From positions 62,001 through 126,000 of the forward strand of contig JARLHA010000059.1 in the NCBI GenBank assembly GCA_031292485.1: a stretch of 64,000 bases of DNA, given 5' to 3'. Below, one piece after another: positions 23,691 to 45,912 of this stretch. Made by a program: the position numbers and the translations under genes. How positions within the stretch are numbered: the first letter of the stretch is position 1; each line of letters begins with the position of its first letter. Under the pieces are notes generated by a model. It worked only from the letters and a program-made list of their open reading frames with translations, was not told the origin of the DNA and did no database searches. The stretch comes from Mucilaginibacter sp. GTDB taxonomy: Bacteria; Bacteroidota; Bacteroidia; Sphingobacteriales; Sphingobacteriaceae.

Positions 23691-23720
23691 CATCACGGTA
23701 GCTGGTAATCAAAGGTTGCC
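23691..23720 (-). promoter_or_regulatory. ECF promoter motif before the sigma operon
   Basis: Minus strand: GGCAACC (23720-23714), 16-bp spacer, CGTGATG (23697-23691). The AAC-type -35 and CGT-type -10 with 16-bp spacing is the general ECF promoter layout. The start codon lies 48 bp downstream. Confidence 0.65.
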
Positions 23721-23829
23721 TGAATGCTGGCGGTGGCCTGTAATCATTTGATTATCAATAAATTATTTTGTCAATTAAAAATAGCTCAAACTTAACGACG
23801 GGGATGATCAACTAATATTTATTTCAACA

Positions 23830-23859
23830 GGCAACCCTAATGAGTGAGTAAACGGTATA
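23830..23859 (+). promoter_or_regulatory. ECF promoter motif before the glycan locus
   Basis: Plus strand: GGCAACC (23830-23836), 16-bp spacer, CGGTATA (from 23853). The -10 differs from the other copies (CGG, not CGT). It lies about 40 bp before the first glycosyltransferase and points away from the sigma operon motif in the same gap. Confidence 0.6.
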
Positions 23860-23901
23860 TAAACAAACACAGGGTTATCATTATTAATAAAAAAGCATTA
23901 G

Positions 23902-24699
23902 ATGGTTCCGGTTTCTATCGTAATAATTACAAAAAATGAGGCTGCTACAATAGCGGTCTGTGTTGAAAAATGCAGGCTGATCTCCGACGACATCGTGGTA
24001 ATTGATAACGATAGTACCGATGGGACGCCGGATATTGCCGGTGCGTACGGATGCAGGGTTTTTAAAAAAAACTGGGACGGATATGGCGCCAATAAAAATA
24101 AAGGCATTGACGCCGCCAAATATGATTGGATTTTGAGCGTTGATGCGGATGAAATGCCTGATGTGGAGTTGGCGATTTCACTGCATCAGTTAAAATTTAA
24201 CGATCCGGGGATTGTTTATGATATTAAATTCAGGTCGTATTTCGGAAAAAAGGCCATTCGGTTTGGCAGTTGGGGGCGCGACCACCATATCCGTCTTTTC
24301 AACCGCACCCGGGTTAGATGGTCGGAAACAATAGTGCATGAAACCCTTGTTATGCCGCAAAACATCAGCGTAAAAAAAATAGTGGGGCATATACACCATT
24401 ATTCAGTAAAGGATGCCGCCGAGTACGATACAAAGGGCAGCTTTTATGCAAAACTGAGCGCAAAAAAATATTTTAATGCGGGCAAAAAAGCGAGTGCGGT
24501 TAAGCTGTATATCTCACCAGTTTTTGGCTTCATCAAAAACTATATTTTTTACCTCGGCTTTCTGGACGGCCACGAAGGCTGGGAAATAGCAAAATCTACT
24601 GTAAAAAACACCCGGAGAAAATATCTTTATTTAAGCCAGCTGCAAAACCTGAACGAGAAAAGGCAGGCCGTTAAAGACAGTTACGTTGTAGAATATTGA
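23902..24699 (+). CDS. GT2 family glycosyltransferase (WaaE/KdtX-like)
   Basis: 265 residues with the GT-A fold opening VSIVIITKNEAATI, an early acidic pair DNDSTDGT and the metal-binding DVDADE-type motif (LSVDADEMP, about 79-87). The region around ETIVHE (about 140) and HHYSVKDAAEY match the KdtX/WaaE-like branch that adds sugars to lipopolysaccharide cores or lipid carriers. A C-terminal hydrophobic hairpin (about 190-215) would attach it to the inner face of the cytoplasmic membrane. It is the first gene of the plus-strand glycan run and follows an ECF-type promoter motif. Confidence 0.87.
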   Translation: MVPVSIVIITKNEAATIAVCVEKCRLISDDIVVIDNDSTDGTPDIAGAYGCRVFKKNWDGYGANKNKGIDAAKYDWILSVDADEMPDVELAISLHQLKFNDPGIVYDIKFRSYFGKKAIRFGSWGRDHHIRLFNRTRVRWSETIVHETLVMPQNISVKKIVGHIHHYSVKDAAEYDTKGSFYAKLSAKKYFNAGKKASAVKLYISPVFGFIKNYIFYLGFLDGHEGWEIAKSTVKNTRRKYLYLSQLQNLNEKRQAVKDSYVVEY

Positions 24700-24768
24700 T
24701 TGGATTCATTCATTATATTTAAGTAATTTTCCTATAAATGATCATTCTTAATTGATGAATAGCAGGCT

Positions 24769-26181
24769 ATGAAAAAAGGACTGGTCCAAAATCTTTCGGT
24801 AAATGCTGGTCAGCTTATTATTAACCAACTTTTAGGTCTCGGCATATTTTATGTCCTTTCGACAGGGCTCGATAAAAACAGCTTCGGGCAAATCAATCTT
24901 GTATTAGCCATTCTGCTTTCGGTATTTAATATATTGTCATTTGGTATGGACCAGATGGTGGTTAAAAAAATAGCAGGGGGAAGGGACACATCATCTGTTC
25001 TTTCCATTTACCTGGTGCACGTACTTATTTCAGGGTTAATTTTTTATGGATTAATACTTGCCGGGTCTGTTTTTTTTCACAACAGAAATGAGTTATACAG
25101 TTTATTATTGCTGATTGGGATTGGTAAACTGATGATTTTCTTTTCAACGCCATTTAAACAGGCTGCAAACGGAATGGAAAGATTCAGGTTGATGGCATAT
25201 ATGTCAGTGATATCTAATCTTGTAAGATGTTCAGGCCTTATCATCCTTGCCATTTTACATCATTTAAGCCTGCATAATGTTATTTTTATATTTATTGGTG
25301 GGGATATTATTGAACTCGTGTTTTGTGTTTATTTGTTCAATCATTCTACAAAAATTCCGGTAACGCTCAAATGGGACAGCGCAGGTTATAAAAAACTACT
25401 ACTTGAATCGTTACCACAAACAGGCGTTGTATTAATTACCTCGGCTCTGGCCAGGTTCGACTGGATCTTTATCGGTTTTATGGTATCGGCTGTAAAATTG
25501 GCCGAGTATAGTTTTGCCTATAAGATCTTTGAAATATCAACGTTACCCCTTTTGGCAATAGCCCCGTTGCTTATTCCCCGTTTCACAAAACTGTTTCAAT
25601 CTGCCGATATCCGGGTTGGTGAGTTGAAGTTTTTGGTAAGAATGGAAATGATACTGGCTGCTTTTACCGGATTGTTGCTGAACCTATGCTGGAGCCCCGT
25701 TATTGACAGGATCACATCCGGCAAATACGGGCTGATCAATATAAAAACGATATTCATTTTATCCTTATGCCTTCCTGTGCTCTATTTGAATAATTTTTTA
25801 TGGACTGTCTATTTCGCACAGGGAAGGTTGAAAATGATCCTCATTTCGTTTATACTTACCTTCCTGGTAAATGTATTAGGAGATATTCTGTTAATCCCTT
25901 TTTTTAAAAATGAAGGTGCGGCATTTGCTTTTTTAGCTGCCTGTATTGTTCAATCTGTTTATTATTTAAAACAAGGCACATTTCCCGAACTTAAAAGTGT
26001 TTGGCAGCCTTTGATCCCTTGCACCCTATGTGCGCTGGTAAGCGGCTTTTTATCCCGGGCGCTGTTTCCCGATAGTTGGCTCGTGCTGCCTGCGGCGATA
26101 CTTGTTTATCTTGGGTTACTTTTTGTTTCAACACAACTAAGAATATCAGACGGTAAATCGCTGAGACGGTTATTTAATTGA
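24769..26181 (+). CDS. Wzx-like polysaccharide flippase
   Basis: 470 residues, almost all hydrophobic, with about 12-14 membrane helices and the polysaccharide-synthesis (MOP superfamily) pattern: an N-terminal ISVNAGQLIINQ-like helix, a QMVVKKIAG loop, AANGMERFRLMA near residue 135, and a central SLPQTGVVLITSALARFDW segment. It should flip a lipid-linked oligosaccharide or repeat unit across the inner membrane. It lies 69 bp after the WaaE-like gene, and polymerase/ligase-like genes follow, so the set looks like a Wzx/Wzy-type system. Confidence 0.85.
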   Translation: MKKGLVQNLSVNAGQLIINQLLGLGIFYVLSTGLDKNSFGQINLVLAILLSVFNILSFGMDQMVVKKIAGGRDTSSVLSIYLVHVLISGLIFYGLILAGSVFFHNRNELYSLLLLIGIGKLMIFFSTPFKQAANGMERFRLMAYMSVISNLVRCSGLIILAILHHLSLHNVIFIFIGGDIIELVFCVYLFNHSTKIPVTLKWDSAGYKKLLLESLPQTGVVLITSALARFDWIFIGFMVSAVKLAEYSFAYKIFEISTLPLLAIAPLLIPRFTKLFQSADIRVGELKFLVRMEMILAAFTGLLLNLCWSPVIDRITSGKYGLINIKTIFILSLCLPVLYLNNFLWTVYFAQGRLKMILISFILTFLVNVLGDILLIPFFKNEGAAFAFLAACIVQSVYYLKQGTFPELKSVWQPLIPCTLCALVSGFLSRALFPDSWLVLPAAILVYLGLLFVSTQLRISDGKSLRRLFN

Positions 26182-26210
26182 TAAAACAGCCACATTTCAT
26201 CTGTCACACT

Positions 26211-26240
26211 GGCAACCCTTTCCATTTTCAGGCCGTAATC
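26211..26240 (+). promoter_or_regulatory. ECF promoter motif before the Wzy-like gene
   Basis: GGCAACC (26211-26217), 16-bp spacer, CGTAATC (26234-26240). It lies about 40 bp before the next start codon, inside an otherwise continuous plus-strand run. Confidence 0.65.
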
Positions 26241-26278
26241 TTTATGAGGTATCCACTGGATTATTTTGTTAAGAACGG

Positions 26279-27907
26279 ATGAAGAACGGCATAAATATTT
26301 TCAAAAAGCTTTTAAACAACATTGACGGGAAGCTGCTGCTTTTCCTGATACTTTTTTTAAATGTAAAGTTAGCCGTAAAAATACCGGCCATCATCATCAT
26401 TTATTTGCTGCAATTTAATTTCAGCTTTGGGTTCAGCCTAAAAAACTCAAGACTGCCGCTTTTTTACTTGTTGATTATCGGCGTGGCCTTTATTGGCCTT
26501 TTAGCCAACCATCACTTTACTGAACCCGGTTACCTGCCGCTTTTTTTTACCGGTATCTTCTTTTGGGGACTATGCATTTTAGCGGTACACCAGGTAAAGC
26601 TGTCGGTTGAAAACAACGATACCGAAGTTATCCACCGCACCATCCTTGTTTTTTTTCTGATCAATGCGTTGATTTCATTTTACAATATCGGGCTTATTAT
26701 GTGGCAGGCCGGCACGATCAATCCCTATACCTACCAGGGCGAATACCAGAAGTATTTTATTGGTACCGGTGATTACATCCTCGGTTTGACCTTTGATATT
26801 TCAACAACAAATGCCGTTTTAAATGCGCTCGGCGTAATTTACTTTCTCGATAGAGAAAAGCCATTAATGGTGCTCACTTGCATGGCCGTTTTGCTTTTAA
26901 CAGGCAGCAATTTCACCAATATTATACTAATAGCCATACTCGCCTTCCTATTTATCTTCAAGAGCAGTAAAGATCAAAAAAGCATCATTGTTATCTGCCT
27001 CATGTTCCTTGTTGTTTTTATGGCGAAAGTTTCGCCGCAAAACAACAAATATACGGGCGATACCATAGCCAATATTATTCATCCTCAAAAACCACTTCCT
27101 GCAACGATTGCTAAAATACAGGTTGTCGCTCCCGGGCCGGATGAGATCAAACGGAAAATCGCGCAGCGATATTTAGACAGTTTAAGGCGGGGTTCGAATA
27201 AAAGCACTGTACCAACACCAACCCCAAAAGCCATCCTTCCCAAAACGGAGAATGGAAGAATTCTTATTGCAGGCCCCGACATCAATACCCCGCCCTACCA
27301 AACACCTACGGATACAACTCCTGAACAAGGGACATTGCTGACATTTATTGATACGCACAAAGCCTACCTTGCGCTTTCATCCGAAAGTGATTTCATCCAG
27401 GGGGCGCCAGGCAAGGTCATCAGCCAGTTGCAAACCATAAAGTTTTTAGAGAGACATCCAGTTAAGATAATAGCAGGCGATGGTATAGGAAATTTTTCAT
27501 CAAAACTTGCTTTTAAAGCCACCGGACTTGGCTTTGCAGGTGGCTGGCCCGAAAAATATAGATATATCAGTAAGGATTTCCTGTTAAACCACCTGGATGT
27601 CTACCTCAACTTTTTTAGTAAACGCACCGGCTTTCATTCGTTAACCAATAGCCCATACTCGGTGTATGATCAACTATTAGGCGAGTATGGCTTGCTGGGT
27701 ATGACAGCATTTCTGATCTTTTACGTTTGGTTTTTCGCCAGGCATTATAAAAGGCTTACTTACGGGATCCCGCTATTAATACTTATGCTGGCGGTGTTTT
27801 CCATCGATTACTGGTTTGAGCAATTATCGGTGGTCGTATTTTTCGAATTACTGCTATTCCTCAATATTAAAGAAACCACCAAAATAGTCGGGTATGTACA
27901 GGGATGA
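26279..27907 (+). CDS. O-antigen polymerase/ligase-like membrane protein
   Basis: 542 residues with about 10 membrane helices. A large extracytoplasmic loop (about 260-420) contains a Pro/Thr-rich low-complexity stretch (STVPTPTPKAILPKTENGR) and, toward its end, GDGIGNFSSKLA, which resembles the catalytic loop of Wzy polymerases and WaaL ligases. No sequence signature separates the two roles. The loop is longer than usual. It has its own ECF-type promoter motif, and its end overlaps the next glycosyltransferase by 14 bp, so the two are co-translated. Confidence 0.72.
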   Translation: MKNGINIFKKLLNNIDGKLLLFLILFLNVKLAVKIPAIIIIYLLQFNFSFGFSLKNSRLPLFYLLIIGVAFIGLLANHHFTEPGYLPLFFTGIFFWGLCILAVHQVKLSVENNDTEVIHRTILVFFLINALISFYNIGLIMWQAGTINPYTYQGEYQKYFIGTGDYILGLTFDISTTNAVLNALGVIYFLDREKPLMVLTCMAVLLLTGSNFTNIILIAILAFLFIFKSSKDQKSIIVICLMFLVVFMAKVSPQNNKYTGDTIANIIHPQKPLPATIAKIQVVAPGPDEIKRKIAQRYLDSLRRGSNKSTVPTPTPKAILPKTENGRILIAGPDINTPPYQTPTDTTPEQGTLLTFIDTHKAYLALSSESDFIQGAPGKVISQLQTIKFLERHPVKIIAGDGIGNFSSKLAFKATGLGFAGGWPEKYRYISKDFLLNHLDVYLNFFSKRTGFHSLTNSPYSVYDQLLGEYGLLGMTAFLIFYVWFFARHYKRLTYGIPLLILMLAVFSIDYWFEQLSVVVFFELLLFLNIKETTKIVGYVQG

Positions 27908-28856
27908 TCCAAAAGTTACGGTTTTAATGCCTGCCTATAACGCCGGTAAATACATTGGTGAAGCCATCGCCTCGGTATTGGAACAATCATTTGCCGATTT
28001 TGAGTTGCTGATTGTTAACGATGGATCGACGGATGACACTGCTGAAATTATACAAGCATTTAAAGATCCCCGCATCGTATTAATTCACCAGGAAAATAAG
28101 GGTGTTGCTTCGGCGCTTAACACAGGCCTTGCCCGTGCACGGGCGCCTTTTGTTGCAAGGTTTGATGCAGATGATATATGCTATCCCAACAGGTTAAAGG
28201 CCCAGTACGATTTTATAACGGCCCATCCCGAATACAGTATTATTGGATCAGCGGCTGATTATGTTGATGCGGCGGGGCATTTTATTTTCACGCACCATCC
28301 GCAGGCTCATTTAAATGAAGAGATCCAGGAGTTAAAATATTCAGTATGCCCATTTATACACTCCAGCGTTTTTTACAAAAAGGAAGTGGTTATTGACAAT
28401 GGGGGATATAATGAGCATGCCCATACCTACGAGGATCATTTTTTATGGGTGAACATTTTGAAGAATGAGAAGGCCTGCAACCTTTCACAAGCGCTGATCG
28501 AAGTAAGGCTCAACCCCGAATCTGTTACGATTGATGAAAAGTGGCATTCGCGGAAATTCCTTTCTATAAAATATGAAACGCTGCGAAAACGCAGCATTAC
28601 CGAAGCGGAAGGCATAGAACTTTTTCAGGTAAGCGGGAAGCGCTATTCACCCAAAATAAAGCAGGGTGCATACTATGCTTTATGCGGAAAAAAATTTCTG
28701 CTGAATAATTATCAGCCTGAAAAGGCGCGGACTAATATGGCAAGGGCCATCACTCTGCAGCCTTTTCGCCTGGATAATTACCTGCTGTATACCGTAAGTT
28801 ATTTTCCTGAAAGGTTCATTAACTGGCTCCATCGAATTCATCGGGATCAAGCATAA
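27894..28856 (+). CDS. GT2 family glycosyltransferase
   Basis: 320 residues with a complete GT2 domain: VTVLMPAYNAGKYIGEAIASV, the VNDGSTDDT nucleotide-binding motif (about 41-49), and ARFDADDICYP (about 90-100) with the DxD metal site. The acceptor part carries the ED motif in HTYEDHFLWV. It transfers a sugar from a nucleotide donor on the cytoplasmic side; donor and acceptor cannot be predicted. The start lies inside the preceding gene (14-bp overlap), and the next gene follows after 10 bp. Confidence 0.9.
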   Translation: MYRDDPKVTVLMPAYNAGKYIGEAIASVLEQSFADFELLIVNDGSTDDTAEIIQAFKDPRIVLIHQENKGVASALNTGLARARAPFVARFDADDICYPNRLKAQYDFITAHPEYSIIGSAADYVDAAGHFIFTHHPQAHLNEEIQELKYSVCPFIHSSVFYKKEVVIDNGGYNEHAHTYEDHFLWVNILKNEKACNLSQALIEVRLNPESVTIDEKWHSRKFLSIKYETLRKRSITEAEGIELFQVSGKRYSPKIKQGAYYALCGKKFLLNNYQPEKARTNMARAITLQPFRLDNYLLYTVSYFPERFINWLHRIHRDQA

Positions 28857-28866
28857 TATTATTATC

Positions 28867-29943
28867 ATGAAGACAGCATTCATCACCAGATCAACACTAT
28901 ACACCGCCCCGGGCGGCGATACCGTGCAGGTTGAGCAAACCGCCAGGGGACTGGCCGAATTGGGAGTGGATACCGAAATTCTATTATCAAACCAGGCTAT
29001 TACCTACGGCGATTACGACTTGCTGCATTTTTTTAATATCATTCGCCCTGCTGATATTCTTTATCATAGCAAAAAAGCGAATAAGCCGTTTGTGGTTTCT
29101 ACCATTTTGGTGAATTATAGCGAATATGATAAAAACCATCGCGAGGGTATAGGTGCCTTGGTCAGATATTTACCCGGCGACGGTATTGAATATATTAAGA
29201 CGATGGCCCGCTGGGTATTGGGTCGCGATCACCTTGCAAGCCTGGATTATGCGTGGAAAGGCCAGCGGAAAAGTATTATGGAAATATTGGCGAAGACAAG
29301 TATGATCCTTCCCAATTCTGAATCGGAATACCGCCGGGTTCAGCAAAAATATCAGAGCAGGGTTAGGTATGCCGTGGTTCCAAATGCCATCGATCCGGCT
29401 TTATTCAAAAATAACCCTGAAACAAAAAAAGATAGTCAATTAGTGCTTTGTGTAGCAAGGATTGAAGGAATAAAAAACCAGTTGAACCTGATCAGCGCGT
29501 TAAACAATACCCGGTTCCGGTTACTTATCATTGGCGCTCCTGCCCCCAATCAGCCTGATTATTACCGGCAATGCCGGGAGACAGCCGCTGAGAACATCTC
29601 TTTTATAGGCCAACTTCCGCAAGAAGATTTAGTACCCTATTACCAAAGCGCCAAAGTGCATGTACTACCAAGTTGGTTTGAAACCACCGGATTAAGCTCA
29701 ATTGAAGCGGCCGCTATGGGGTGTAACATAGTAATAACCGACAAAGGCGATCCCCGCGAGTATTTTGAAAACGAGGCTTTTTATTGTGACCCATCAAACC
29801 CGCAAAGCATACTTGAAGCCGTTGAGCGGGCAAGTGAAGCTCCCAACTGCGAAAAACTACAGCAAAAAATTCTGAATCAATATACCTGGAAACATACCGC
29901 AATACAAACATTGAAGGCATACCAATTAACCGCTGCAACATGA
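28867..29943 (+). CDS. GT4 family glycosyltransferase
   Basis: 358 residues with the two-domain GT-B architecture. The N-terminal domain opens TAFITRSTLYTAPGGDTVQVEQTARGLAELG, and the C-terminal domain carries CVARIEGIKNQ and the GT4 E-x7-E region in PSWFETTGLSSIEAAAMG (about 260-278). It is a retaining transferase for glycan assembly. Its stop overlaps the next ATG by 4 bp (29940-29943), showing an operon. The sugar is unknown. Confidence 0.9.
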   Translation: MKTAFITRSTLYTAPGGDTVQVEQTARGLAELGVDTEILLSNQAITYGDYDLLHFFNIIRPADILYHSKKANKPFVVSTILVNYSEYDKNHREGIGALVRYLPGDGIEYIKTMARWVLGRDHLASLDYAWKGQRKSIMEILAKTSMILPNSESEYRRVQQKYQSRVRYAVVPNAIDPALFKNNPETKKDSQLVLCVARIEGIKNQLNLISALNNTRFRLLIIGAPAPNQPDYYRQCRETAAENISFIGQLPQEDLVPYYQSAKVHVLPSWFETTGLSSIEAAAMGCNIVITDKGDPREYFENEAFYCDPSNPQSILEAVERASEAPNCEKLQQKILNQYTWKHTAIQTLKAYQLTAAT

Positions 29944-31067
29944 AATTAAGAATAGCGATTTTAGGAACAAGGGGCATCCCTAACTATTACGGGGGCTTTG
30001 AACATATATCAGAATATGTTTCGGAAGGCCTTGTAAAAAGAGGGTATTCTGTTACCGTTTATAATTCACACAATCACCATTATCAGAAAGATAACTGGAA
30101 CGGCGTAGAAATACGGCACTGTTTTGATCCGGAATACCTGGTTGGCACGGCGGGGCAGTTTGCCTATGATTTTAACTGCCTGTTGGATGCGCGGAAAAGA
30201 AGTTTTGATGTGGTTTTGATAATGGGCTATACCAGTAGTTCGGTTTGGGGGAAGTTTTACCCGCCAAACAGTACTATTATTACCAATATGGATGGCCTTG
30301 AATGGAAACGGACCAAATATTCAAAACCGGTGCAGCAATTTTTAAGGTACGCTGAAAAACTTGCTGTAAAGTACAGCCAGTTTTATATTTCGGATTCGCT
30401 GATCATCAAATCGTACCTGGGTGAAAAATATAATATTGAGAGCAAATATATTCCTTACGGCGCCGATCTTTTTTCGGAAGAGGAGCGTGAACAGGTAGAT
30501 AATAGAAAGGCGCTAAAGGAAGACTATTTTTTACTAATGGCGAGGATGGAGCCGGAAAATAATATCGAAACCATTTTAGAAGGCTTTAATAATAGCACCT
30601 CCCGGCGGAAATTTAAGGTATTGGGTAGTACCGATAACCGGTTTGGGAAATTCATAACCCACAGGTTTAAGAACGACGAACGGATAGAGTTTAAGGGTTC
30701 AATATACGATACCGGTAAAGTAAGGGCCCTGCAAAACAACTCGTACCTGTATTTTCACGGGCATAGTGTTGGCGGAACCAATCCATCCCTGTTAGAAGCG
30801 ATGGCCAGCGAGGCACTTATTGCGGCACATAATAATCCCTTTAACCAATCGGTTTTGCATTCCGATGCTTTTTATTTTTCCAACGCAAACGACGTGCGTA
30901 ACCTGGTCGAAACAGTTCAGCGGAAAGAGACCGAAAAAATAATGGTGAACAATAACCTGCAAAAAATAAAATACCAGTTTAACTGGGAGCGGATCATTGA
31001 CCAGTACGAGGCGTTTATTTTGGAATGCCACAAAAAGACAAACCATGAACAAGTTATTGCTGATTAA
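29940..31067 (+). CDS. DUF1972-type glycosyltransferase (rhamnosyltransferase-like)
   Basis: 375 residues. The N-terminal DUF1972 domain opens LRIAILGTRGIPNYYGGFE, a motif seen in rhamnosyl- and related transferases of capsule loci, and the C-terminal GT-B half contains MARMEPENNIETIL and the HGHSVGGTNPSLLEAMA box (about 278-294). It is probably a retaining sugar transferase in repeat-unit assembly. It is coupled to the previous gene by a 4-bp ATGA overlap, and the ATG of the following membrane protein lies 23 bp inside its end. Confidence 0.88.
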   Translation: MKLRIAILGTRGIPNYYGGFEHISEYVSEGLVKRGYSVTVYNSHNHHYQKDNWNGVEIRHCFDPEYLVGTAGQFAYDFNCLLDARKRSFDVVLIMGYTSSSVWGKFYPPNSTIITNMDGLEWKRTKYSKPVQQFLRYAEKLAVKYSQFYISDSLIIKSYLGEKYNIESKYIPYGADLFSEEEREQVDNRKALKEDYFLLMARMEPENNIETILEGFNNSTSRRKFKVLGSTDNRFGKFITHRFKNDERIEFKGSIYDTGKVRALQNNSYLYFHGHSVGGTNPSLLEAMASEALIAAHNNPFNQSVLHSDAFYFSNANDVRNLVETVQRKETEKIMVNNNLQKIKYQFNWERIIDQYEAFILECHKKTNHEQVIAD

Positions 31068-32373
31068 GGACAATTTGGCAAATAAGATAAGCTATTACCA
31101 TGTGATGTTATTTATGGTGAGCTTACCTTTTAATATGTTTTATAGCCACCTTATCCTGGTGAGTTTGTTTATTCATACGCTTATCCACTTAAACAGGAAC
31201 AACATTAAACCTATTTTTAAATGGAGAATGTTTGTATTGTCGTCGGTATTTATAATAACGGTGTTAAGTACTATTTATACCATTAACCCGAATGAAGGAT
31301 TTAATGAATGGGGCAGACACATCACCATTTTGCTTTTCCCGCTGTTGTTTTGCCTTAACCCGCTTGATTTAAAAAAATACCGGCAACAATTACTGATGAC
31401 GTTTGCCCTGGTATGTACCGCAACCATTATTTACCTGTATGCCGATGCGCTGCATACCATAAGACACTATAAGCTGCCTTATTCAAATCTTTTTTCAGCA
31501 GCCTTTACCAACCATAATTTTTCGGAACCGATAGATATGCATGCCACTTTTTTTTCAATGCAGATTGCTGTATCATTCATTTATTTACTTTCTGTTTTGA
31601 TAAAAGAAAAAACGGAGTATAAAAAAGTGTTTTACCTGTTTTGCTTCTTTATTCTTATTGCGGGGATTATCCAGTTGAGTTCGAAGTCGATAGTGATTGC
31701 CTCAATCATCCTGGTAACCTTTGCACTGCCCTTTTTTTCACTAAAAGGGATGGCTCGGTGGAAATTTATGATGGGTTCTTTGGTGCTTTCTGTTTTTGTG
31801 ATTATCGGGATACTAAATTCAGACACTTTTAGGCAACGTTTTGTTAATGAATTAAAAATCGATCTCACCAAATCAAAAGTTGTTGAAACTACCGATAGCC
31901 GCCTGGCCAGATGGGGTGTAGTGATGGAATTGGTTAAAAAAGCCCAGGTAACAGGCTATGGCGCTGGTTCCGAGATCGGACTGCTGCAGGATGGTTTCTA
32001 TAAGCATAAACTATATAGTTCATATTTAAACCGGCTGAACGGGCATAGCCAGTATTTTAGTTTTTTATTAAAATCAGGCATCATTGGCTTGCTGGTATAT
32101 TTAAGCACATTGGCTTTTGGTTTTAGGATCGCCGTCCGGCAAAAGGATCTGCTTTTCTTCACTTTTATGGCCCTTGTCGCCATTGTTTCTTTTTCAGAGA
32201 ATTTGCTGGATGTGGATAAAGGAGTCATCTTCTACGCTTTCTTCTTTTCTTTCTTTATTTTCTCAAATGAAGAGCCCGGTAATAAAGATCTCCCGGTTAA
32301 AATACATCCTTCTGCCGTAAACCAGGAGTCGGAGATATTAATATTGGAAGGCGATTTTACAACGCCGGTTTAA
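31045..32373 (+). CDS. O-antigen ligase family protein
   Basis: 442 residues from the ATG at 31045 (MNKLLLIKDNL). An in-frame ATG at 30997 exists but lies deeper in the previous gene and adds a polar tail. About 10-11 membrane helices are visible, with a Wzy_C-type central region: the LARWGVVMELVKKAQVTGYGAGS segment and GHSQYFSFLLKSGIIGLLVYL, in which the histidine and the arginines are typical of O-antigen ligases and polymerases. It is the second such protein in the locus, so one may polymerise and the other ligate. Confidence 0.82.
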   Translation: MNKLLLIKDNLANKISYYHVMLFMVSLPFNMFYSHLILVSLFIHTLIHLNRNNIKPIFKWRMFVLSSVFIITVLSTIYTINPNEGFNEWGRHITILLFPLLFCLNPLDLKKYRQQLLMTFALVCTATIIYLYADALHTIRHYKLPYSNLFSAAFTNHNFSEPIDMHATFFSMQIAVSFIYLLSVLIKEKTEYKKVFYLFCFFILIAGIIQLSSKSIVIASIILVTFALPFFSLKGMARWKFMMGSLVLSVFVIIGILNSDTFRQRFVNELKIDLTKSKVVETTDSRLARWGVVMELVKKAQVTGYGAGSEIGLLQDGFYKHKLYSSYLNRLNGHSQYFSFLLKSGIIGLLVYLSTLAFGFRIAVRQKDLLFFTFMALVAIVSFSENLLDVDKGVIFYAFFFSFFIFSNEEPGNKDLPVKIHPSAVNQESEILILEGDFTTPV

Positions 32374-32394: not shown

Positions 32395-32424
32395 GGCAAC
32401 CAATCAGCGGGTTTGGCCGTCATT
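32395..32424 (+). promoter_or_regulatory. ECF promoter motif before the nucleotidyltransferase gene
   Basis: GGCAACC (32395-32401), 16-bp spacer, CGTCATT (32418-32424), about 46 bp before the next start codon. Confidence 0.65.
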
Positions 32425-37343: not shown

Positions 37344-37348
37344 CGTAA

Positions 37349-38092: not shown

Positions 38093-38101
38093 AAATAGCA
38101 A

Positions 38102-39601
38102 TTAAAATCCCTGGATTTCCGGTTGACGGTATTTCCAAACCTTTTGCAGTAGTTTGATTTCGTAGGGGTAGCTATACACGTTTACTTTGTAACGCATGCC
38201 GGCTACCAGTTGTATCGCTTTTCGTTTGATGCTGCTGAGGCGGATATCGGTAACCGTTGGGTAAACGCCATTTAGAACCGTTTCAAAGTTTTGGATCTTT
38301 CCTATCATTTCGGGCGTTAACCAGGGCGTAAGCGGGTTTTTCCGCAGGTCGAAATTTTCCCAGGCAGGGCTTATCCAGTCTTCAAGCACTTTCGGGTATT
38401 TAAAACCAGCTGCTTCTACCTGCTTAAACAGGGAAGATCCTTCAGTAGGAACCGGGCTATAGGTATACAGCACAATTTCAGTTCGTGGATTTACGGCCTT
38501 TACTTTTTTAATGAAATCTATTTCAAAATCTATCTGTGCCTCCACCTGTTTGGCTGTTGGCGCCGGTGTACCTAAAACAAAGGAATACTCGGGAATGATA
38601 TCAAATTTCTTCAATCGCTCAGCGAATCGGATGATCTGATCACCTGTCTGTGTACCGCCTTTATCCAATTGGTCCAGTATAAGGTTGTTGCCGCTCTCAG
38701 CGCCAAAGAATATGATCTTGCAACCTGCCTCCCTTATCAATGCTAATGAGGTATCGCTGAACTTGTCCATGGTGTCAATCCTCGCCATTCCCCACCACGA
38801 CATTTTTTCGGGTTTTATCAGTTTTGCAAATTCAACCGTCCTTTTTTCAGAAACAAAGAAATTATTATCATGAAATTCAATGGCATCGGCTCCCCACTTG
38901 TCCTTGATATATTTAACATCATTATAAACCGTTTGGGCTGATTTCGCCTTCCACCGGGCCTCAAAAATGGGTACTACCGCGCAAAAAGAACAGGTAAACG
39001 GGCAGCCAATGCTGGAATGATAGGCCAGTGTTTTTTCGCCCAAAAAGGTTTTACCAAGATATTTTTTAATGTTATAGGTCTCGTTAAGCTTATCGTACGG
39101 CAATGGCGGCAAAGGGTCCTGGTCAAAAAGGTCTTCTTTTTGGGTCTTGACAATTTCATTGCCTGCCTTGTAAATCAAATTCCTGATAAACTCATAAGGT
39201 TTATTGTTTTCAAGTGCGTCTATTAATGATGGGAAGGCATGATCGCCGGGGCCGTTGATAATAAAATCAACATACCCGGAATCCAGGATAATTTTTGGAT
39301 GGCTCGAGGGAAAATAGCCCCCCCATATCATAATGGTATGGGGGAACTTTTCCTTTATCGTTTTTGCAAAAGGTATGGATTGCTTTAGTTGGGGGCCCGG
39401 CATTACCGTAAACCCAAGGTATTTGTATTCGCCGGTGCTTAAATAAGATTCTATTACATCCAGCGGGTTGGCGTCGCGGTTGCCGTCAACAATCACCCAT
39501 TCGTATGTACCTTCAACGGAGGCTGCAATACTTAAAATGGAGTTGGGGATACGGTACTTACCGTTTGCGCTTTGGGGATTAAATAATAAAATCTTACTCA
39601 T
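38102..39601 (-). CDS. B12-binding-domain radical SAM enzyme
   Basis: 499 residues from ATG 39601 (MSKILLFNPQ); a GTG at 39613 is an alternative. The N-terminal B12-binding-like domain includes LGFTVMPGP and MIWGGYFPSSHP. The radical SAM core has Cys200-x3-Cys204-x2-Cys207 in SIGCPFTCSFCAVVP, and FFGAESGNNLILDQLDKG follows. It opens the five-gene minus operon and is divergent from the methyltransferase at 39806. An ECF motif and a large palindrome lie in its leader. It differs clearly from the second B12-type enzyme, so the operon probably does sequential chemistry. Confidence 0.86.
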   Translation of the reverse strand: MSKILLFNPQSANGKYRIPNSILSIAASVEGTYEWVIVDGNRDANPLDVIESYLSTGEYKYLGFTVMPGPQLKQSIPFAKTIKEKFPHTIMIWGGYFPSSHPKIILDSGYVDFIINGPGDHAFPSLIDALENNKPYEFIRNLIYKAGNEIVKTQKEDLFDQDPLPPLPYDKLNETYNIKKYLGKTFLGEKTLAYHSSIGCPFTCSFCAVVPIFEARWKAKSAQTVYNDVKYIKDKWGADAIEFHDNNFFVSEKRTVEFAKLIKPEKMSWWGMARIDTMDKFSDTSLALIREAGCKIIFFGAESGNNLILDQLDKGGTQTGDQIIRFAERLKKFDIIPEYSFVLGTPAPTAKQVEAQIDFEIDFIKKVKAVNPRTEIVLYTYSPVPTEGSSLFKQVEAAGFKYPKVLEDWISPAWENFDLRKNPLTPWLTPEMIGKIQNFETVLNGVYPTVTDIRLSSIKRKAIQLVAGMRYKVNVYSYPYEIKLLQKVWKYRQPEIQGF

Positions 39602-39637
39602 TCTATAAATCACAAAATTGATCTGAATTCTTGCTTA

Positions 39638-39694: not shown

Positions 39695-39760
39695 ATAAAC
39701 AACAAACCCAATTTAACCATCAAACTATTTTTTCAATGATATGAACTATCACTACTAACA

Positions 39761-39788
39761 ATACGCCCTATAAAAAACTAAGGTTGCC
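39761..39788 (-). promoter_or_regulatory. ECF promoter motif before the radical SAM operon
   Basis: Minus strand: GGCAACC (39788-39782), 16-bp spacer, CGTAT (39765-39761). It predicts a leader of about 150 nt containing the palindrome at 39638-39694. Confidence 0.6.
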
Positions 39789-39805: not shown

Positions 39806-40630
39806 GTGGCAGAGCAACCTTTGGGGACGATGCTCCGTATTTCTTCGTGTAAGGATTGCATATTTCCAGATCAAAACCATCTTGATAACGTGATAAAAAC
39901 TGTAAAAAAATATATCAGCAGGCACTTCTTTCCACCACAGGTAACCGAAAGAGCGGTTGTGGAGGCGTATGACCTGTGGGCCGAAAATTATGATTCGCAG
40001 CCGGGCAACCTGATGCTAGACCTGGATAAAATGCTGTTTTCGAAGCTGATAGAAGGCGTTGAGTTGAAAGAAAAGGTTGTTGCAGACATAGGCTGTGGTA
40101 CCGGCAGGCACTGGATCGAAATTTTTAAAAAAGAACCAGCGAGCTTAACAGGGTTTGATGTCTCTCCCGGAATGCTACATAAATTGAAAGAAAAATTTCC
40201 GCTTGCGGAAACCTACGCCATTACGGATAATAGTTTTTCAGGCATCAGCGATCACAATTTTGATGTCGTAATATCAACGCTAACCGTTGCACATATCGAA
40301 AACCTGAAAGAAGCCCTGGAAGCCTGGTGCCGGATAACTAAGGATGATGGCGACATTATTATAACAGACTTTCATCCCGATACACTGGCTTTTGGCGGTA
40401 AAAGAACATTCAAACACGGGAACACACAAATTGCTGTCAGGAATTTCGTGTATACAGTAGATAAAATCAAAGAGATCCTTTTAACAAATGGCTTTAAAGC
40501 AGTTAGTGAATTCGAAAGGAAAATTGATGAGTCGGTAAAGCATTATTATACCGAACAAAATGCAACGCTGGTTTACGAAAAATTTAAGGGCTTCCCGGTT
40601 ATTTATGGGATTCATTTCAGGAGGGAATAA
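39806..40630 (+). CDS. class I SAM-dependent methyltransferase
   Basis: 274 residues if the GTG at 39806 is used, or 266 from the ATG at 39830 (MLRISSCKDC). Motif I is VVADIGCGTGRHWIEIF, motif II LTGFDVSPGML, and post-II FDVVISTLTVAHIEN, as in UbiE/BioC-type enzymes. It is divergent from the radical SAM operon. Its stop overlaps the next ATG by 1 bp (TAATG), so it is coupled to the amidohydrolase. The pair may modify one substrate in turn, which is an inference. I see no ECF motif on the plus strand in front of it. Confidence 0.85.
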   Translation: MAEQPLGTMLRISSCKDCIFPDQNHLDNVIKTVKKYISRHFFPPQVTERAVVEAYDLWAENYDSQPGNLMLDLDKMLFSKLIEGVELKEKVVADIGCGTGRHWIEIFKKEPASLTGFDVSPGMLHKLKEKFPLAETYAITDNSFSGISDHNFDVVISTLTVAHIENLKEALEAWCRITKDDGDIIITDFHPDTLAFGGKRTFKHGNTQIAVRNFVYTVDKIKEILLTNGFKAVSEFERKIDESVKHYYTEQNATLVYEKFKGFPVIYGIHFRRE

Positions 40631-41787
40631 TGATCTTAAGCAACTTGAAGGCGGTGGGTATTGACGAGATTGTTGATCTCAGGATTGATGGTGATAAAAT
40701 AGCGGCGATATCATCAACCCCGATTCTAAATCAAGACCACGCCATGCAGTTAACTTTTGAAAATGCACTCGTTTTTCCCGGACTTATAAATTCGCACGAC
40801 CACCTTGATTTTAACCTGTTCCCCCAGTTGGGAACCAGGATTTACAATAATTACACCGAATGGGGGCGTGATATCCATCGAACCTATAAAAAAGAAATTG
40901 CTGAGGTTTTAAAAGTTCCTGACTTTTTGCGTGCTGAATGGGGCGTTTATAAAAACCTGCTTTGCGGGGTTACTACTGTGGTTAATCACGGTAAAAGGCT
41001 GAATATGTTTGATGCCCCCATAACAGTTTTTGGAGATACCCATTGTTTACATTCCATAAAGTTTGAGAAATTGTGGAGGATAAAGCTGAATAATCCATTC
41101 AAAACTAAAGTTCCGGTAAATATTCATATTGGTGAAGGGAGCGATTGGCCATCGTTTTTTGAAATTAGTCAATTAGCACAATGGAACCTGCTGAGGAAAA
41201 GGCTCATCGGGGTGCACGCAGTAGCTATGAGCGAGGAACAGGCAAAAAAATTTGAAGCGATAGTTTGGTGTCCGCAGTCCAATTATTTTTTGCTCAACAA
41301 AACCGCACGGGTTGATCTTTTAAAAAACAACACCAAATTGTTATTTGGTACCGATTCGACGCTGACGAGTGAGTGGGATATGTGGGAGCATCTTCGCTCC
41401 GCCCGTGAAGCGAAGCTCATTGCCGACGATGAATTATATCAAACAGTTAATCAAAATGCAGCGAAAACCTGGCAGCTAAACAACGGCGAAATAGCTGTGG
41501 GCAAGGATGCAGATATTGTAGTGGCAAAGATAAAAGACCACAAAAAGGGCTTTGATGCGTATTTCGCGATCACGCCGGCTGACCTGTTGCTGGTGATGCA
41601 TAAAGGGAATATCGGGTTGTTTGATGAAACCATCATGGGCCAGTTAAAAACAATCCGCGTTTCTGAATATAGTAAAATATACATAAACGGTGTTGGCAAA
41701 TATGTCCGGGGTGATTTGCCGGGTTTAATGGAAAAGATAAAAGTGTATTATCCTGCAGCACGTTTTCCGGTAAATGCAAATAATTAA
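40630..41787 (+). CDS. amidohydrolase superfamily metal-dependent hydrolase/deaminase
   Basis: 385 residues with amidohydrolase metal ligands: His56-x-His58 in LINSHDHLDF, His166 in NIHIGEGSD, His196 in GVHAVAM, and Asp242 in FGTDSTLT. The short N- and C-terminal beta parts (V-E-N-A-L-VFPGLINSH and KDADIVVAKI) flank the barrel. The pattern is nearest the cytosine/guanine deaminase and ATZ/TRZ hydrolase branch, so deamination or hydrolysis of an amino- or chloro-heterocycle is likely. It starts inside the methyltransferase stop codon. Its place in a glycan/synthetase locus suggests a role in making or tailoring a metabolite rather than salvage. Confidence 0.85.
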   Translation: MILSNLKAVGIDEIVDLRIDGDKIAAISSTPILNQDHAMQLTFENALVFPGLINSHDHLDFNLFPQLGTRIYNNYTEWGRDIHRTYKKEIAEVLKVPDFLRAEWGVYKNLLCGVTTVVNHGKRLNMFDAPITVFGDTHCLHSIKFEKLWRIKLNNPFKTKVPVNIHIGEGSDWPSFFEISQLAQWNLLRKRLIGVHAVAMSEEQAKKFEAIVWCPQSNYFLLNKTARVDLLKNNTKLLFGTDSTLTSEWDMWEHLRSAREAKLIADDELYQTVNQNAAKTWQLNNGEIAVGKDADIVVAKIKDHKKGFDAYFAITPADLLLVMHKGNIGLFDETIMGQLKTIRVSEYSKIYINGVGKYVRGDLPGLMEKIKVYYPAARFPVNANN

Positions 41788-41827: not shown

Positions 41828-42925
41828 ATGACCTACGTTTTTGTAAGTTTTGCTTATTTACCCGATTTGGACTCGCCGGAAAGGTGGTTTGAAAGAACGG
41901 CGGTTTATTCCGGCGTTTTGGAATGCTTAAGTAAGGAAAATACAGTTCATAACGTAATACGGATCAACTACCAGGGAAAATGCGAGCACAATGGCGTTAC
42001 CACCCACTTTGTTAACTTTGGCAAAAGCAAAGGGTATTTGCCCATTCGGCTAATCAATTTTATAAAAAGCCTGAAGCCCGATGTTTTGTTTGTACAAGGG
42101 TTACACCAGCCACTACAGTTGATCTCATCGGGCTTGTTATTAAATAGACGAATCAAAATAATTGTACAACACCATGCCGAAAAACCATTTACAGGGATAA
42201 AGAAATATATCCAGATAACAGCAGGAAGATTTGTCAACGCTTATTTGTTTGCAGCTGCGTCGATAGGTGAGGATTGGGTGAGCAGAGGAAACATCGCGTC
42301 AGCTCGAAAAATACATGAAGTGATGGAAGTGTCCTCCCGTTTTTATCCTTTGAAGAAGGCCCCTGCGAAATTAAAAACCGGGGCAGAGGGGGCACCCATA
42401 TTTTTATGGGTTGGCCGCCTGAACGCGAATAAAGACCCATTGAATGTTGTGAAGGCATTTTTAAAATTTACAGAAACAACTCCCGGAGCAAGAATGTATA
42501 TGATTTATCATACCGAAGAATTGCTGAATGACATAAAAGCACTGATAAAAAATGCCCCTGTAAAAAATGCCATTGTTTTGGCGGGAAAGGTACCGCACGA
42601 CGATTTGCTTTACTGGTACAACAGTGCTGATTTTTTTATTTCGGGGTCTCACTATGAGGGCAGCGGTACAGCGCTTTGCGAGGCGATTTCATGCGGATGC
42701 ATCCCGGTGGTTACCGATATATTTGCTTTCAGGATGATAACGGACGATGGAAAATGTGGAATATTATATGAACCCGTGAATGAAGAAGCATTGCTGGCGG
42801 CATTGCAACAAACAAAAACCCTGGACTTAGCCGAAAAACGAAACCGGTCCTTAACTTATTTTAAGGAGAACTTGTCATTCGAGGCTATTTCCTCAAAAAT
42901 TCAGCAAATCGCTGCATCTCTTTAG
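41828..42925 (+). CDS. GT4 family glycosyltransferase
   Basis: 365 residues in a GT-B layout. The C-terminal half has FLWVGRLNANKDPLNVVKAF and the GT4 acceptor box SGSHYEGSGTALCEAISCGCIPV (about 275-297). The N-terminus opens YVFVSFAYLPDLDSPERWF and lacks the usual glycine-rich loop. It probably transfers a sugar in glycan or glycoconjugate assembly. It starts 40 bp after the amidohydrolase and is convergent with the next gene, so it ends the plus-strand run. Confidence 0.85.
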   Translation: MTYVFVSFAYLPDLDSPERWFERTAVYSGVLECLSKENTVHNVIRINYQGKCEHNGVTTHFVNFGKSKGYLPIRLINFIKSLKPDVLFVQGLHQPLQLISSGLLLNRRIKIIVQHHAEKPFTGIKKYIQITAGRFVNAYLFAAASIGEDWVSRGNIASARKIHEVMEVSSRFYPLKKAPAKLKTGAEGAPIFLWVGRLNANKDPLNVVKAFLKFTETTPGARMYMIYHTEELLNDIKALIKNAPVKNAIVLAGKVPHDDLLYWYNSADFFISGSHYEGSGTALCEAISCGCIPVVTDIFAFRMITDDGKCGILYEPVNEEALLAALQQTKTLDLAEKRNRSLTYFKENLSFEAISSKIQQIAASL

Positions 42926-42951
42926 TAAATTAAATTCGACAAAGAGATCGC

Positions 42952-44007
42952 TCATACAAACAAGCTGATCACATTTTTTGCGATTTGTTCAATGGGGCAC
43001 ATCAAAACAGGGTCGTGGCCGCGATGGGTGTTTTTTAATATGGTTGATAAAGTCGCGTTCATGGCCTCCTGATCTTTTACCACGTAATGATGCCGGTAAT
43101 CCTTATTCATTGGTTTACAGAAAGACACAACATGAGCCCCGGCGTATAATGCCTCGGATAAAACAGATCCAAACCCTTCATAAGCCGAAGGGTGTAAAAA
43201 CAATTTTGATCGTTGCATCAACGCCAAAACTTCCTTTTGTGGCAACTCACCGGTAAACAACAGGTTGTTTTCTAAATTCAGGGAGGCCGCCAATGTCTTT
43301 AAATTATCCATTTCAGGGCCTTTACCGCAGATAACGGCTTTTATATTCGGGAAATAACTCTTTAAGAAAGCAATGGCTTCTACAAAAATATCGTACCGTT
43401 TCAGGGGGATCAATGAACCGGCGCCTAAAATATCAATGTCTCTTTTTGCAGGCGCAGGCCCAAACATTGAAGTATCAATACCAACCGGGATTATCTGTTG
43501 TGCCGAGACCCAATAGTTTTGCCTGATCTCTGTCGCAATAAAATCAGACAGCGCGATAAGCTCGCTGCCATTGGGCTTTACCCATTTGAAGTATTTATTC
43601 CCGCTTTTGGCATCCTGCCCTAATACCCAGGCGTAATGGTTGAGCCGGTATCGTTTTGCAAAATAACTGCCAACAAAGGCGCACTCCCCGAACCAAAAAC
43701 TCAGTATCCCCAAAAGTTTGCTTTTCTTTTTCAGCCTCAGCATTATCCGCCATGCCTTTATCCATACCCACACTCTATTATACCCACCTCTTTCTTTTCC
43801 GCCAATAGCATATACTTTTATGCCATGCCAGGTGTATACACTTTCAATAAATGGATATTGAAAACTGATGACGACGATATTCAGTCCGGGGCAGATCTTT
43901 TTAAGCGCCCCGGCAAATATTTGCTGGGGAGGAATGCATGCCGTATCCGCCTCATTTTCGGGGAAGCCGGGGCTAAGGATCACCAGGGTTTCAGGCGTAC
44001 GCTTCAT
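42952..44007 (-). CDS. GT4 family glycosyltransferase
   Basis: 351 residues with the GT-B fold. The C-terminal half has ILGAGSLIPLKRYDIFVEAI and the box HPSAYEGFGSVLSEALYAGAHVV (about 275-297). Its start lies inside the end of the ABC transporter gene (17-bp overlap), so the two are made together. A glycosyltransferase coupled to a PglK-like flippase suggests that the glycosylated or lipid-linked product is exported by that transporter. The N-terminal GFPENEADTACIPPQQ segment is typical of colanic-acid-type transferases. Confidence 0.85.
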   Translation of the reverse strand: MKRTPETLVILSPGFPENEADTACIPPQQIFAGALKKICPGLNIVVISFQYPFIESVYTWHGIKVYAIGGKERGGYNRVWVWIKAWRIMLRLKKKSKLLGILSFWFGECAFVGSYFAKRYRLNHYAWVLGQDAKSGNKYFKWVKPNGSELIALSDFIATEIRQNYWVSAQQIIPVGIDTSMFGPAPAKRDIDILGAGSLIPLKRYDIFVEAIAFLKSYFPNIKAVICGKGPEMDNLKTLAASLNLENNLLFTGELPQKEVLALMQRSKLFLHPSAYEGFGSVLSEALYAGAHVVSFCKPMNKDYRHHYVVKDQEAMNATLSTILKNTHRGHDPVLMCPIEQIAKNVISLFV

Positions 44008-45685
44008 CCATCGAAAATATTTTATTACAAAATGATAAACTGGCTTTGCTGTGGGTGATGAACAGGATCATCTTGCCTTGTTGGGCAAGGCCCTGCAAGC
44101 GCATTAATATGGTTCTTTCCGAAAAATCGTCCATTTCACCAAATGGCTCATCCAGGATAAGCAGGTCGAAATCATGGTACAGCGCCCGGGCAAGCATTAT
44201 TCGTTGCCGCTGACCGCCACTTATATTTTTCCCGTTTTCGCGGATCACTTTTTGCACCCCTTCCGGATATTTCTCCAATAACTGACCAAGGCCGCAGAAC
44301 TCAATCACTTCTTCGAGTTCGTCTTTTTTAAATCCATCTTGGGCCAGCGTGATATTTTTTAAAATAGTATCATGGATAAAAAATGGCTGTTGCTTTACAT
44401 AGGAAATGTTGTTGCGGTACATCATTCTGTCCGCAGCGCCTGTTTTTTTATTGTTGATAGTAATGGTTCCGCTATCAGGTTCTAAAAATCCCAATAAAAG
44501 GTTGATGATGGTGGTTTTTCCTTTTCCTGATGGCGCCGACATACCTACAAAATCTCCGGGGGTAATATTGAAACTAGTCCCGTTTAAAACATCGTGATGC
44601 TGGTATTTAAAATGAACATTTTCAAATTGTATGGAATTGATTGAACCGGGCGAGCCTGCGTTTTTAGCATAGTGCATTTCCCCGGTAGGAGAAGCAAGAT
44701 CATTCAGCGTAAATTGATAGGTTTTGATTTGGCCGGCGCTATTTAAAATTTTGATAATCCCCGGGATGATCTTATAGGCCGCCGCCATAAAAACGCCCAT
44801 AGTAAGCAAACTGATTGCAGGTACACTTGCCGACAATTTATTTACGGCTATCAAAATAAAAAAACCCAGCACAGCGAAGGTTTCGATCAGGCGGGAAGGC
44901 AGGCTCTGTAAAGTTTGCTGGGTCGCAATATGATCATTCATCTGCTGCTGGTCTTTGTAATAGCGGTCAGTAAAAAAGCGCTGTTTATCATAAATGTTGC
45001 TCTCCACATACCCGGATAATGATTCCTGCAAATGCTGGATGGTTAGCTGACTGTTGATTTTAATACTGGCACGAATATGTTTTAGTTTCTTTTTGATCAA
45101 CCAACCAAGTATAATAACAGGGGGCAGCAATAAAAGGAACAGGGAAAGGAACAAGCCGGGGTGATAAAAAAGGATCGCTGTTATGGTGAACAAAATCAGG
45201 ATGCTTTGTGAAATGATCTGCTGTACATTGGTTAATATGTAATTACTGAATTCAATAGGCTGCTGGCTTATTTTCCGAAAAAAAACCGATGAATCGGTAT
45301 TTACAAATTGAGCATAATCGCCCTGTAAATACCGCGATATATTACGTTTCGACAAACGGGAGGCTATGCTGTAAAAAAATGTGTATTCTTTTTTCGACAG
45401 CAGGTATCCCAGCCAGTTTTTTAAACTAAACAATATGAAGAAGATGCTTACCAGGAACAAAGGGTTTTTATTACTGATGGATAGCAAATAAATATAGTGG
45501 CCCGGTAATTTGCCCGACGCGTAATAATTGACGACTATTAATAAACCACCCAAAAAAACAATATCAAGCAATCCGATCATGCTGTCAAGCACAGCATGCA
45601 GAAACATTTTTATCCTCTCTTCGGAGTTTAAAATGCTGAGTACGGATAAAATAAAATGCTTCAAATGCCTGTGAATTGGTGTCAA
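43991..45685 (-). CDS. ABC exporter, fused permease and ATPase (PglK/MsbA-like)
   Basis: 564 residues starting with a TTG codon at 45685; a stop codon lies two codons upstream in frame, so the start cannot be further out. Six membrane helices (about 30-320) precede an ATPase domain with Walker A APSGKGKTT (384-392, Ala in place of the first Gly), signature ISGGQRQ (488-494), Walker B LLILDEPF (508-515) and His545. It resembles the lipid-linked-oligosaccharide flippase and MsbA families. It starts an ECF-motif operon with a glycosyltransferase, and the synthetase gene is divergent. It likely flips or exports a glycan, lipid or peptide product. Confidence 0.88.
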   Translation of the reverse strand: MTPIHRHLKHFILSVLSILNSEERIKMFLHAVLDSMIGLLDIVFLGGLLIVVNYYASGKLPGHYIYLLSISNKNPLFLVSIFFILFSLKNWLGYLLSKKEYTFFYSIASRLSKRNISRYLQGDYAQFVNTDSSVFFRKISQQPIEFSNYILTNVQQIISQSILILFTITAILFYHPGLFLSLFLLLLPPVIILGWLIKKKLKHIRASIKINSQLTIQHLQESLSGYVESNIYDKQRFFTDRYYKDQQQMNDHIATQQTLQSLPSRLIETFAVLGFFILIAVNKLSASVPAISLLTMGVFMAAAYKIIPGIIKILNSAGQIKTYQFTLNDLASPTGEMHYAKNAGSPGSINSIQFENVHFKYQHHDVLNGTSFNITPGDFVGMSAPSGKGKTTIINLLLGFLEPDSGTITINNKKTGAADRMMYRNNISYVKQQPFFIHDTILKNITLAQDGFKKDELEEVIEFCGLGQLLEKYPEGVQKVIRENGKNISGGQRQRIMLARALYHDFDLLILDEPFGEMDDFSERTILMRLQGLAQQGKMILFITHSKASLSFCNKIFSMDEAYA

Positions 45686-45753
45686 TTTTTAAAGAGCATA
45701 TTTCACTCTCCGGGTATATCTTATTCATTTTAAGGGATTAACTCCCTGTAAGC

Positions 45754-45782
45754 GTTACGGTTGTGACCGGGCATAAGTTGCC
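45754..45782 (-). promoter_or_regulatory. ECF promoter motif before the ABC exporter
   Basis: Minus strand: GGCAACT (45782-45776), 16-bp spacer, CGTAAC (45759-45754). It differs from the other copies only in the last -35 base (T, not C). The TTG start lies about 70 bp downstream. Confidence 0.6.
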
Positions 45783-45883
45783 TCATGTAAAAAAGATTTT
45801 AATTGATGTTCCGGCCTGCTATATCTCAACCGGAAACGCAAAATAAGCCAGGTTAACCCTCATCTATAGAATTGATGTTGCGC

Positions 45884-45912
45884 AGCAACCAAAAGCACAA
45901 TTTTGCGTATAA
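45884..45912 (+). promoter_or_regulatory. weaker ECF-like motif before the A-PCP-TE gene
   Basis: AGCAACC (45884-45890), 15-bp spacer, CGTATAA (45906-45912). The spacer is one base short and the first -35 base differs, so this copy is less certain than the others. It lies 28 bp before the start codon. Confidence 0.4.

Follow-up and report, generated by a model that had tools for sequence, protein, structure and literature searches.

The window analyzed here, a 64,000-nucleotide stretch of Mucilaginibacter sp. DNA, carries an ECF sigma factor gene with three further genes in its operon and, beside it, a cluster of genes for glycan assembly, modification, and export (Table 1). The 214-aa sigma factor has the makeup expected of an ECF protein (~200 aa, regions 2 and 4 only), and its best PDB matches are SigW, SigH, and SigE. 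The neighboring cluster resembles Wzx/Wzy-type O-antigen or exopolysaccharide clusters in its flippase, Wzy/WaaL-like proteins, and glycosyltransferases; unlike these, it has predicted ECF-type promoters at the heads of its operons and additionally encodes three methyltransferases, two B12-binding radical SAM enzymes, a SPASM enzyme, a PglK-like ABC transporter, and an amidohydrolase. For the 542-aa membrane protein, the best PDB fold match is a weak one to WaaL (7tpg; prob 0.91, E 0.036; model pLDDT 66), and Wzy_C was weakly detected in 3 of 15 members. The nucleotidyltransferase-fold protein had no PDB match by sequence. A surface glycan, predicted to be polymeric or lipid-linked, is suggested as the product by the Wzx flippase, two Wzy/WaaL-like proteins, several glycosyltransferases, and PglK/MsbA-like ABC transporter, and its unusual modification by the two B12-radical SAM enzymes, SPASM enzyme, three methyltransferases, amidohydrolase, and nucleotidyltransferase-like protein.

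Table 1 Genes and predicted promoters of the sigma operon and glycan cluster (window coordinates; relatives are those with the motif ahead of the orthologous gene, unless stated otherwise)
Feature	Coordinates	Strand	Basis and details
DUF5777 outer-membrane barrel protein, sigma operon	20271..21200	-	Pfam 3.8e-77; kept in 17/21 relatives mapped
YceI-like protein, sigma operon	21210..21761	-	Pfam; kept behind sigma in 17/21 relatives mapped
Candidate Dma-type anti-sigma factor, 411 aa	21766..23001	-	AF2 architecture, Foldseek; overlaps sigma gene by 4 bp
ECF sigma factor, 214 aa, regions 2 and 4 only	22998..23642	-	Pfam Sigma70_r2, Sigma70_r4_2
Predicted sigma operon promoter	23692..23720	-	GGCAACC-N16-CGTGAT; 21/21 relatives; 58/74 named loci
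Predicted GT2/Wzx operon promoter	23830..23858	+	GGCAACC-N16-CGGTAT; 15/15 relatives
Glycosyltransferase family 2 (GT2)	23902..24699	+	Pfam
Wzx-type flippase	24769..26181	+	Pfam Polysacc_synt
Predicted Wzy/WaaL-like and glycosyltransferase operon promoter	26211..26239	+	GGCAACC-N16-CGTAAT; 13/14 relatives; 36/37 loci
WaaL/Wzy-like membrane protein, 542 aa (O-antigen polymerase or ligase type)	26279..27907	+	Fold match
Glycosyltransferase family 2	27894..28856	+	Pfam
GT4-type glycosyltransferase	28867..29943	+	Pfam
DUF1972/GT4-type glycosyltransferase	29940..31067	+	Pfam
Wzy_C O-antigen ligase/polymerase family protein	30997..32373	+	Pfam
Predicted nucleotidyltransferase gene promoter	32395..32423	+	GGCAACC-N16-CGTCAT; 12/12 relatives
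Nucleotidyltransferase-fold protein	32470..33426	+	Pfam Polbeta/NTP_transf_2, weak
Methyltransferase	34005..34826	-	Pfam
B12-binding radical SAM enzyme	34823..36286	-	Pfam
Radical SAM/SPASM enzyme	36297..37370	-	Pfam
Methyltransferase	37349..38101	-	Pfam
B12-binding radical SAM enzyme, head of radical SAM operon	38102..39613	-	Pfam
Predicted radical SAM operon promoter	39760..39788	-	GGCAACC-N16-CGTATT; 7/9 relatives
Predicted methyltransferase promoter, divergent from 39788-	39813..39841	+	AGCAACC-N16-CGTATT; 6/9 relatives (automatic count)
Methyltransferase, GTG start 39890	39890..40630	+	Orthologues about 246 aa
Amidohydrolase	40630..41787	+	Pfam
GT4-type glycosyltransferase	41828..42925	+	Pfam
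GT4-type glycosyltransferase	42952..44007	-	Pfam
MsbA/PglK-like ABC transporter	43991..45685	-	Pfam, NCBIfam
Predicted ABC/GT4 operon promoter	45754..45782	-	GGCAACT-N16-CGTAAC; 9/11 relatives

An orthologue of the 411-aa gene adjoins the sigma gene in all 21 relatives mapped. The protein had no Pfam match at E 0.001, and OMP_b-brl_2 was found in 15 of 23 members. Its AF2 model comprises two short, cytosolic N-terminal helices at residues 4-18 and 28-39 (low confidence), a transmembrane helix at 50-69, a disordered stretch of ~135 residues (71-206, pLDDT mostly near 30), and an eight-strand barrel at 217-404 (pLDDT about 80-95) that Foldseek matched to NspA (TMt 0.76) and OmpA (prob 1.0). Many relatives across the class likewise encode, downstream of sigma, a protein with a transmembrane helix near residue 50. 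This four-part architecture is that of the Dma anti-sigma factors of Bacteroides, whose genes adjoin those of ECF21 sigma factors (PMC13088901). As in the Das/Dma pairs of B. thetaiotaomicron (PMC13088901 and the 2024 PNAS paper cited therein), the sigma gene adjoins its partner, and the 411-aa candidate resembles Dma in architecture, with a putative N-terminal anti-sigma segment, one transmembrane helix, a long disordered tether, and a C-terminal outer-membrane barrel. On the strength of its model, the 411-aa protein is probably an anti-sigma factor spanning both membranes; an ECF21 affiliation of the sigma factor would follow solely from this Dma-type partner. None of the three genes that share the sigma operon, the 411-aa gene (21766-23001) and those for the YceI and DUF5777 envelope proteins, had figured in an earlier, sequence-only reading of this DNA.

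That reading had located six copies of GGCAAC(C/T)-N16-CG, and we verified all of them in the window sequence (every promoter in Table 1 except 39813+). Its description of the -10 element as mostly CGTnAT holds roughly: CGTGAT, CGTAAT, and CGTCAT conform, and CGGTAT, CGTATT (two promoters), and CGTAAC depart from it. A seventh site at 39813+, back to back with 39788-, had been overlooked, perhaps because its first base (A) differs; it precedes a methyltransferase gene whose listed GTG start at 39806 is too early, the GTG at 39890 matching its orthologues. The weaker copy reported at 45884+ (AGCAACC-N15-CGTATA) is present as well. Elsewhere in the window, the N16 form matches once more, at 52559+, within the coding sequence of an ApbE gene. 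With an AAC-type -35, a CGT-type -10, and a spacer of ~16 bp, ahead of genes that include the sigma gene, the sites have the layout of ECF promoters. The motif is also directional and strongly conserved, as operators can be, and might instead be bound by some other DNA-binding regulator; we find this very improbable, as the motif is asymmetric, combines fixed 16-bp spacing with an AAC/CGT layout like that of ECF promoters, and sits tens of bases from gene starts, including that of the sigma gene itself.

We examined how often the motif occurs across the genome (5.73 Mb, covered by pattern searches plus sequence stretches). GGCAACYN16CG has 131 matches, versus 96 for a reversed control, and six of the 131 fall within the 22 kb of the locus, where 0.51 would be expected (Poisson P = 1.5e-5, for a region picked post hoc), which is above chance. 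The stringent form, GGCAACC-N16-CGT, occurs 18 times genome-wide. Four of these are in the cluster, all intergenic; the other 14 consist of 12 coding matches outside the window, the ApbE match at 52559, and one intergenic match that has no gene ahead of it within the stretch inspected (all 13 outside the window were checked for coding context). The intergenic share therefore differs between the cluster (4/4) and elsewhere (1/14; Fisher P = 0.0016). On these genome-wide counts, and with nearly all non-cluster stringent matches in coding sequence, we rejected the notion of a motif common throughout the genome and without preferred position. What argues decisively against chance is its conservation in relatives.

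We fetched 20-40 kb around 21 sigma orthologues and counted the motif ahead of each gene. Of the 91 relative-gene combinations at operon heads, 83 had the N16 motif (counts for each head are given in Table 1), compared with just 4 of 185 for internal, neighboring, or control genes; when the spacing was set to 12-15 or 17-20, four scattered matches appeared in total, three N12 and one N17. Conservation in related genomes, a check proposed by the earlier reading, holds for operon heads across Mucilaginibacter. For the divergent methyltransferase promoter, a wider scan that allowed over-extended start codons raised the count to 8 of 9 relatives. At the sigma gene's own promoter, a sequence resembling GGCAACCTTT-N13-CGTGAT was found in 58 of 74 named loci, mostly 73-84 bases upstream of the start; the remaining 16, which lack an exact match, are mostly paralogues or distant homologues and also include the Dyadobacter and Sunxiuqinia genes and M. 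rivuli, whose sigma promoter is an N17 version (the Dyadobacter copy starts CGCAACC). The flanking CTTT and GAT, which were not set in the search pattern as GCAAC and CGT were, carry 1.5-2 bits per position, with most spacer positions below 0.6. Ahead of the 542-aa gene, the motif was present at 36 of 37 genus loci, compared with none for the reversed motif and a mean of 0.06 for base shuffles; the sole exception, locus L140, differs by one base of the -10 box (GGCAACC-N16-AGTAAT).

Since all sites in the window lie within 22 kb, the copies could in principle reflect local duplication or mere gene neighborhood, without shared control. To this we give next to no credence: the boxes are kept while spacers and flanks vary between sites, and the motif is retained in rearranged or diverged clusters of other relatives (G016 and G042, both rearranged, and G020, G022, and G052). 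Moreover, 1.8 Mb separate cluster and sigma gene in G026, a genome assembled as a single contig, and the motif still stands at all operon heads, including the divergent pair, leading us to reject physical linkage as the cause of motif conservation.

Shared control by the sigma factor can also be viewed through loss of the cluster. Homologues of the sigma factor (E<=0.001) occur in 61 of 61 genus genomes, with orthologues in most, whereas just 36 of the 61 encode a relative of the 542-aa protein from the cluster. Given this wider distribution of the sigma gene, the glycan genes cannot be its only role; by way of its own operon, it perhaps also helps to maintain the envelope. Among genomes that lack the 542-aa gene, the stringent matches of G004 and G035 amount to the sigma promoter plus at most one more, and those of G046 to six, the one at the sigma gene and five further. 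Near the sigma gene, two relatives retain just the first half of the cluster, and because some relatives lack the radical SAM half next to the first, the cluster is modular. Outside the genus, none of 151 sampled genomes from the same order had the cluster, but we found it in Dyadobacter, which belongs to a different order; by this sampling the surface-glycan cluster appears nearly confined to Mucilaginibacter. The Dyadobacter frigoris locus combines a sigma gene (69%) with the cluster from GT2 to nucleotidyltransferase, motifs ahead of three cluster operons, and, in the anti-sigma position, a 460-aa gene that had no match by the similarity search used. The simplest account is that regulator, targets, and promoters travel as one unit.

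We wondered how specific the motif is to this sigma factor. Class-wide, 18 of the 29 best homologues have an upstream [AG]GCAAC[CT]-N14-17-CGT, most often N15 followed by CGTC; judging by these comparisons, the core motif is an old signature of this ECF group, common to many related ECF genes in the class. Because the core is shared in this way, the 16-bp spacer, together with the bases that follow CGT, probably confers specificity, and another ECF factor could contribute. Within the same genome, we found no GGCAACY-N16-CGT upstream of other sigma-like genes (18 of 23, five weak homologues being unaligned and left out), and two such genes have looser matches, GGCAACG-N16-CGC and TGCAACG-N15-CGTC. 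Cross-use by a 67%-identical paralogous sigma was rejected, the paralogue's own promoter being without the motif. That the motif is a general element for several ECF sigmas, so that the cluster answers to more than one, would accord with the class-wide core and with the overlapping ECF regulons suspected in Flavobacterium (PMC9723704); nevertheless, the lack of the stringent motif at every other aligned sigma-like gene, the coding location of all but one of the remaining stringent genome matches, and the clearest cluster-less relatives, in which the motif is all but restricted to the sigma gene, make this unlikely. We infer instead that the neighboring sigma factor reads the motif.

The peptide-synthetase-like gene at 45941-48694 had also been assigned to the regulon, which was not borne out. 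It has no orthologue in the cluster of relatives; its homologues occupy other genomic positions, and the motif is absent upstream of all 11 examined, one of them 88% identical, so we rejected it as a member. On this comparison, the NRPS-like gene and the N15 copy at 45884+ are outside the conserved regulon, and the N15 copy may be a strain-private promoter for this gene.

Taken together, we consider it highly likely, from comparative sequence evidence, that an autoregulated ECF/Dma-type pair drives its own operon and the surface-glycan cluster through GGCAACC-N16-CGTNAT-like promoters. The sigma factor and the two-membrane-spanning Dma-type anti-sigma factor would form an autoregulated switch; upon release by the anti-sigma factor, sigma would direct RNA polymerase to these promoters, driving its own operon (sigma, anti-sigma, YceI, and DUF5777) and six further promoters of the surface-glycan cluster. 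The self-controlled ECF regulon of the sequence-only reading is supported by comparative genomics (the genus-wide motif at operon heads, the 1.8-Mb relocation, and the transfer to another order) for the glycan-assembly genes, those for radical SAM enzymes and methyltransferases, and that for the PglK/MsbA-like transporter, minus the NRPS-like enzyme. There is a precedent for such a self-controlled pair in Bacteroides thetaiotaomicron, where deleting dma2 strongly raises das2, fitting autoregulation (PMC13088901); autoregulation is predicted here too, and both systems have additional operon genes. The outputs differ: the known ones of Das/Dma are vesiculation and altered PUL expression, and the predicted one here is a dedicated glycan-biosynthesis cluster, which a promoter motif shared across the genus defines. 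Like SigP/PorX-PorY of Porphyromonas gingivalis, this would be a Bacteroidota ECF sigma over envelope or secretion genes, and its promoters share a conserved CGT box with the SM6 ECF promoters of Flavobacterium psychrophilum; in the accessible portions of these two accounts (PMC4800418, PMC9723704), the SigP and SM6 targets are type IX secretion genes, and neither a glycan cluster nor a Dma-type anti-sigma is mentioned. A limited literature search found nothing on ECF21 promoters or on a sigma/glycan link in Mucilaginibacter.

Mucilaginibacter, a genus of soil bacteria, is named for its slime. The signal sensed by the pair would be the state of the outer membrane. As a tentative and rather doubtful extension, the Dma-like barrel might sense the regulon's own surface glycan, or the resulting change in the outer membrane, and feed back on the glycan promoters; if true, one protein would link the cell surface to glycan-gene promoters in a feedback loop. 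Dma-type anti-sigma factors are a recent discovery, and little has been learned of the signals to which their sigma factors respond or of the genes that these control directly. Through comparative genomics, the locus yields a defined promoter sequence, seven promoters that carry it, and mutually consistent natural experiments in relocation, loss, and horizontal transfer. It thereby makes what a two-membrane-spanning anti-sigma factor senses a testable question, and ties that question to the synthesis of an unusual surface glycan.

Class-wide, GGCAACC-N14/15/16-CGT, mostly with CGTC, precedes many of the related ECF genes (loci L252-L279), the spacer differing in length from lineage to lineage; this arrangement is a general signature of the ECF group to which the window's sigma factor belongs. 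Within target promoters of the fetched relatives, the bases 3' of the CG tend to be target-specific and conserved between species: sigma promoters carry CGTGAT, GT2 promoters often CGATAT, those of the 542-aa gene CGTAAT and those of the nucleotidyltransferase CGTCAT. Perhaps these bases set a graded series of promoter strengths.

In the window's own genome (G000), a paralogous sigma gene lacks the motif; the Dma-like protein paired with it shares 52% identity with the 411-aa candidate anti-sigma protein, and the end of a histidine-kinase-like gene lies upstream of this sigma gene. Only one further intergenic stringent match was found in this genome, with no downstream gene in the stretch examined. 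The glycan cluster also contains a retropepsin-like protease gene with no counterpart found among the mapped relatives.

Coordinates of features in the window and elsewhere in its genome
Feature	Position	Remark
Paralogous sigma gene	G000:C43:59234-59869 (L086, L296)	67% identical to window sigma
Further intergenic stringent match	G000:C63:88995-89020	
Retropepsin-like aspartic protease gene	33471-33890	within cluster

In Sunxiuqinia dokdonensis (L232), of a distant Bacteroidota lineage, the core sigma operon occurs without the glycan cluster, the sigma (60%), Dma-like, DUF5777 and YceI genes being grouped at one locus. In Dyadobacter frigoris (L230), from another order, the sigma gene is accompanied by the glycan cluster, and motifs are present too, an apparent horizontal transfer of the whole regulon.
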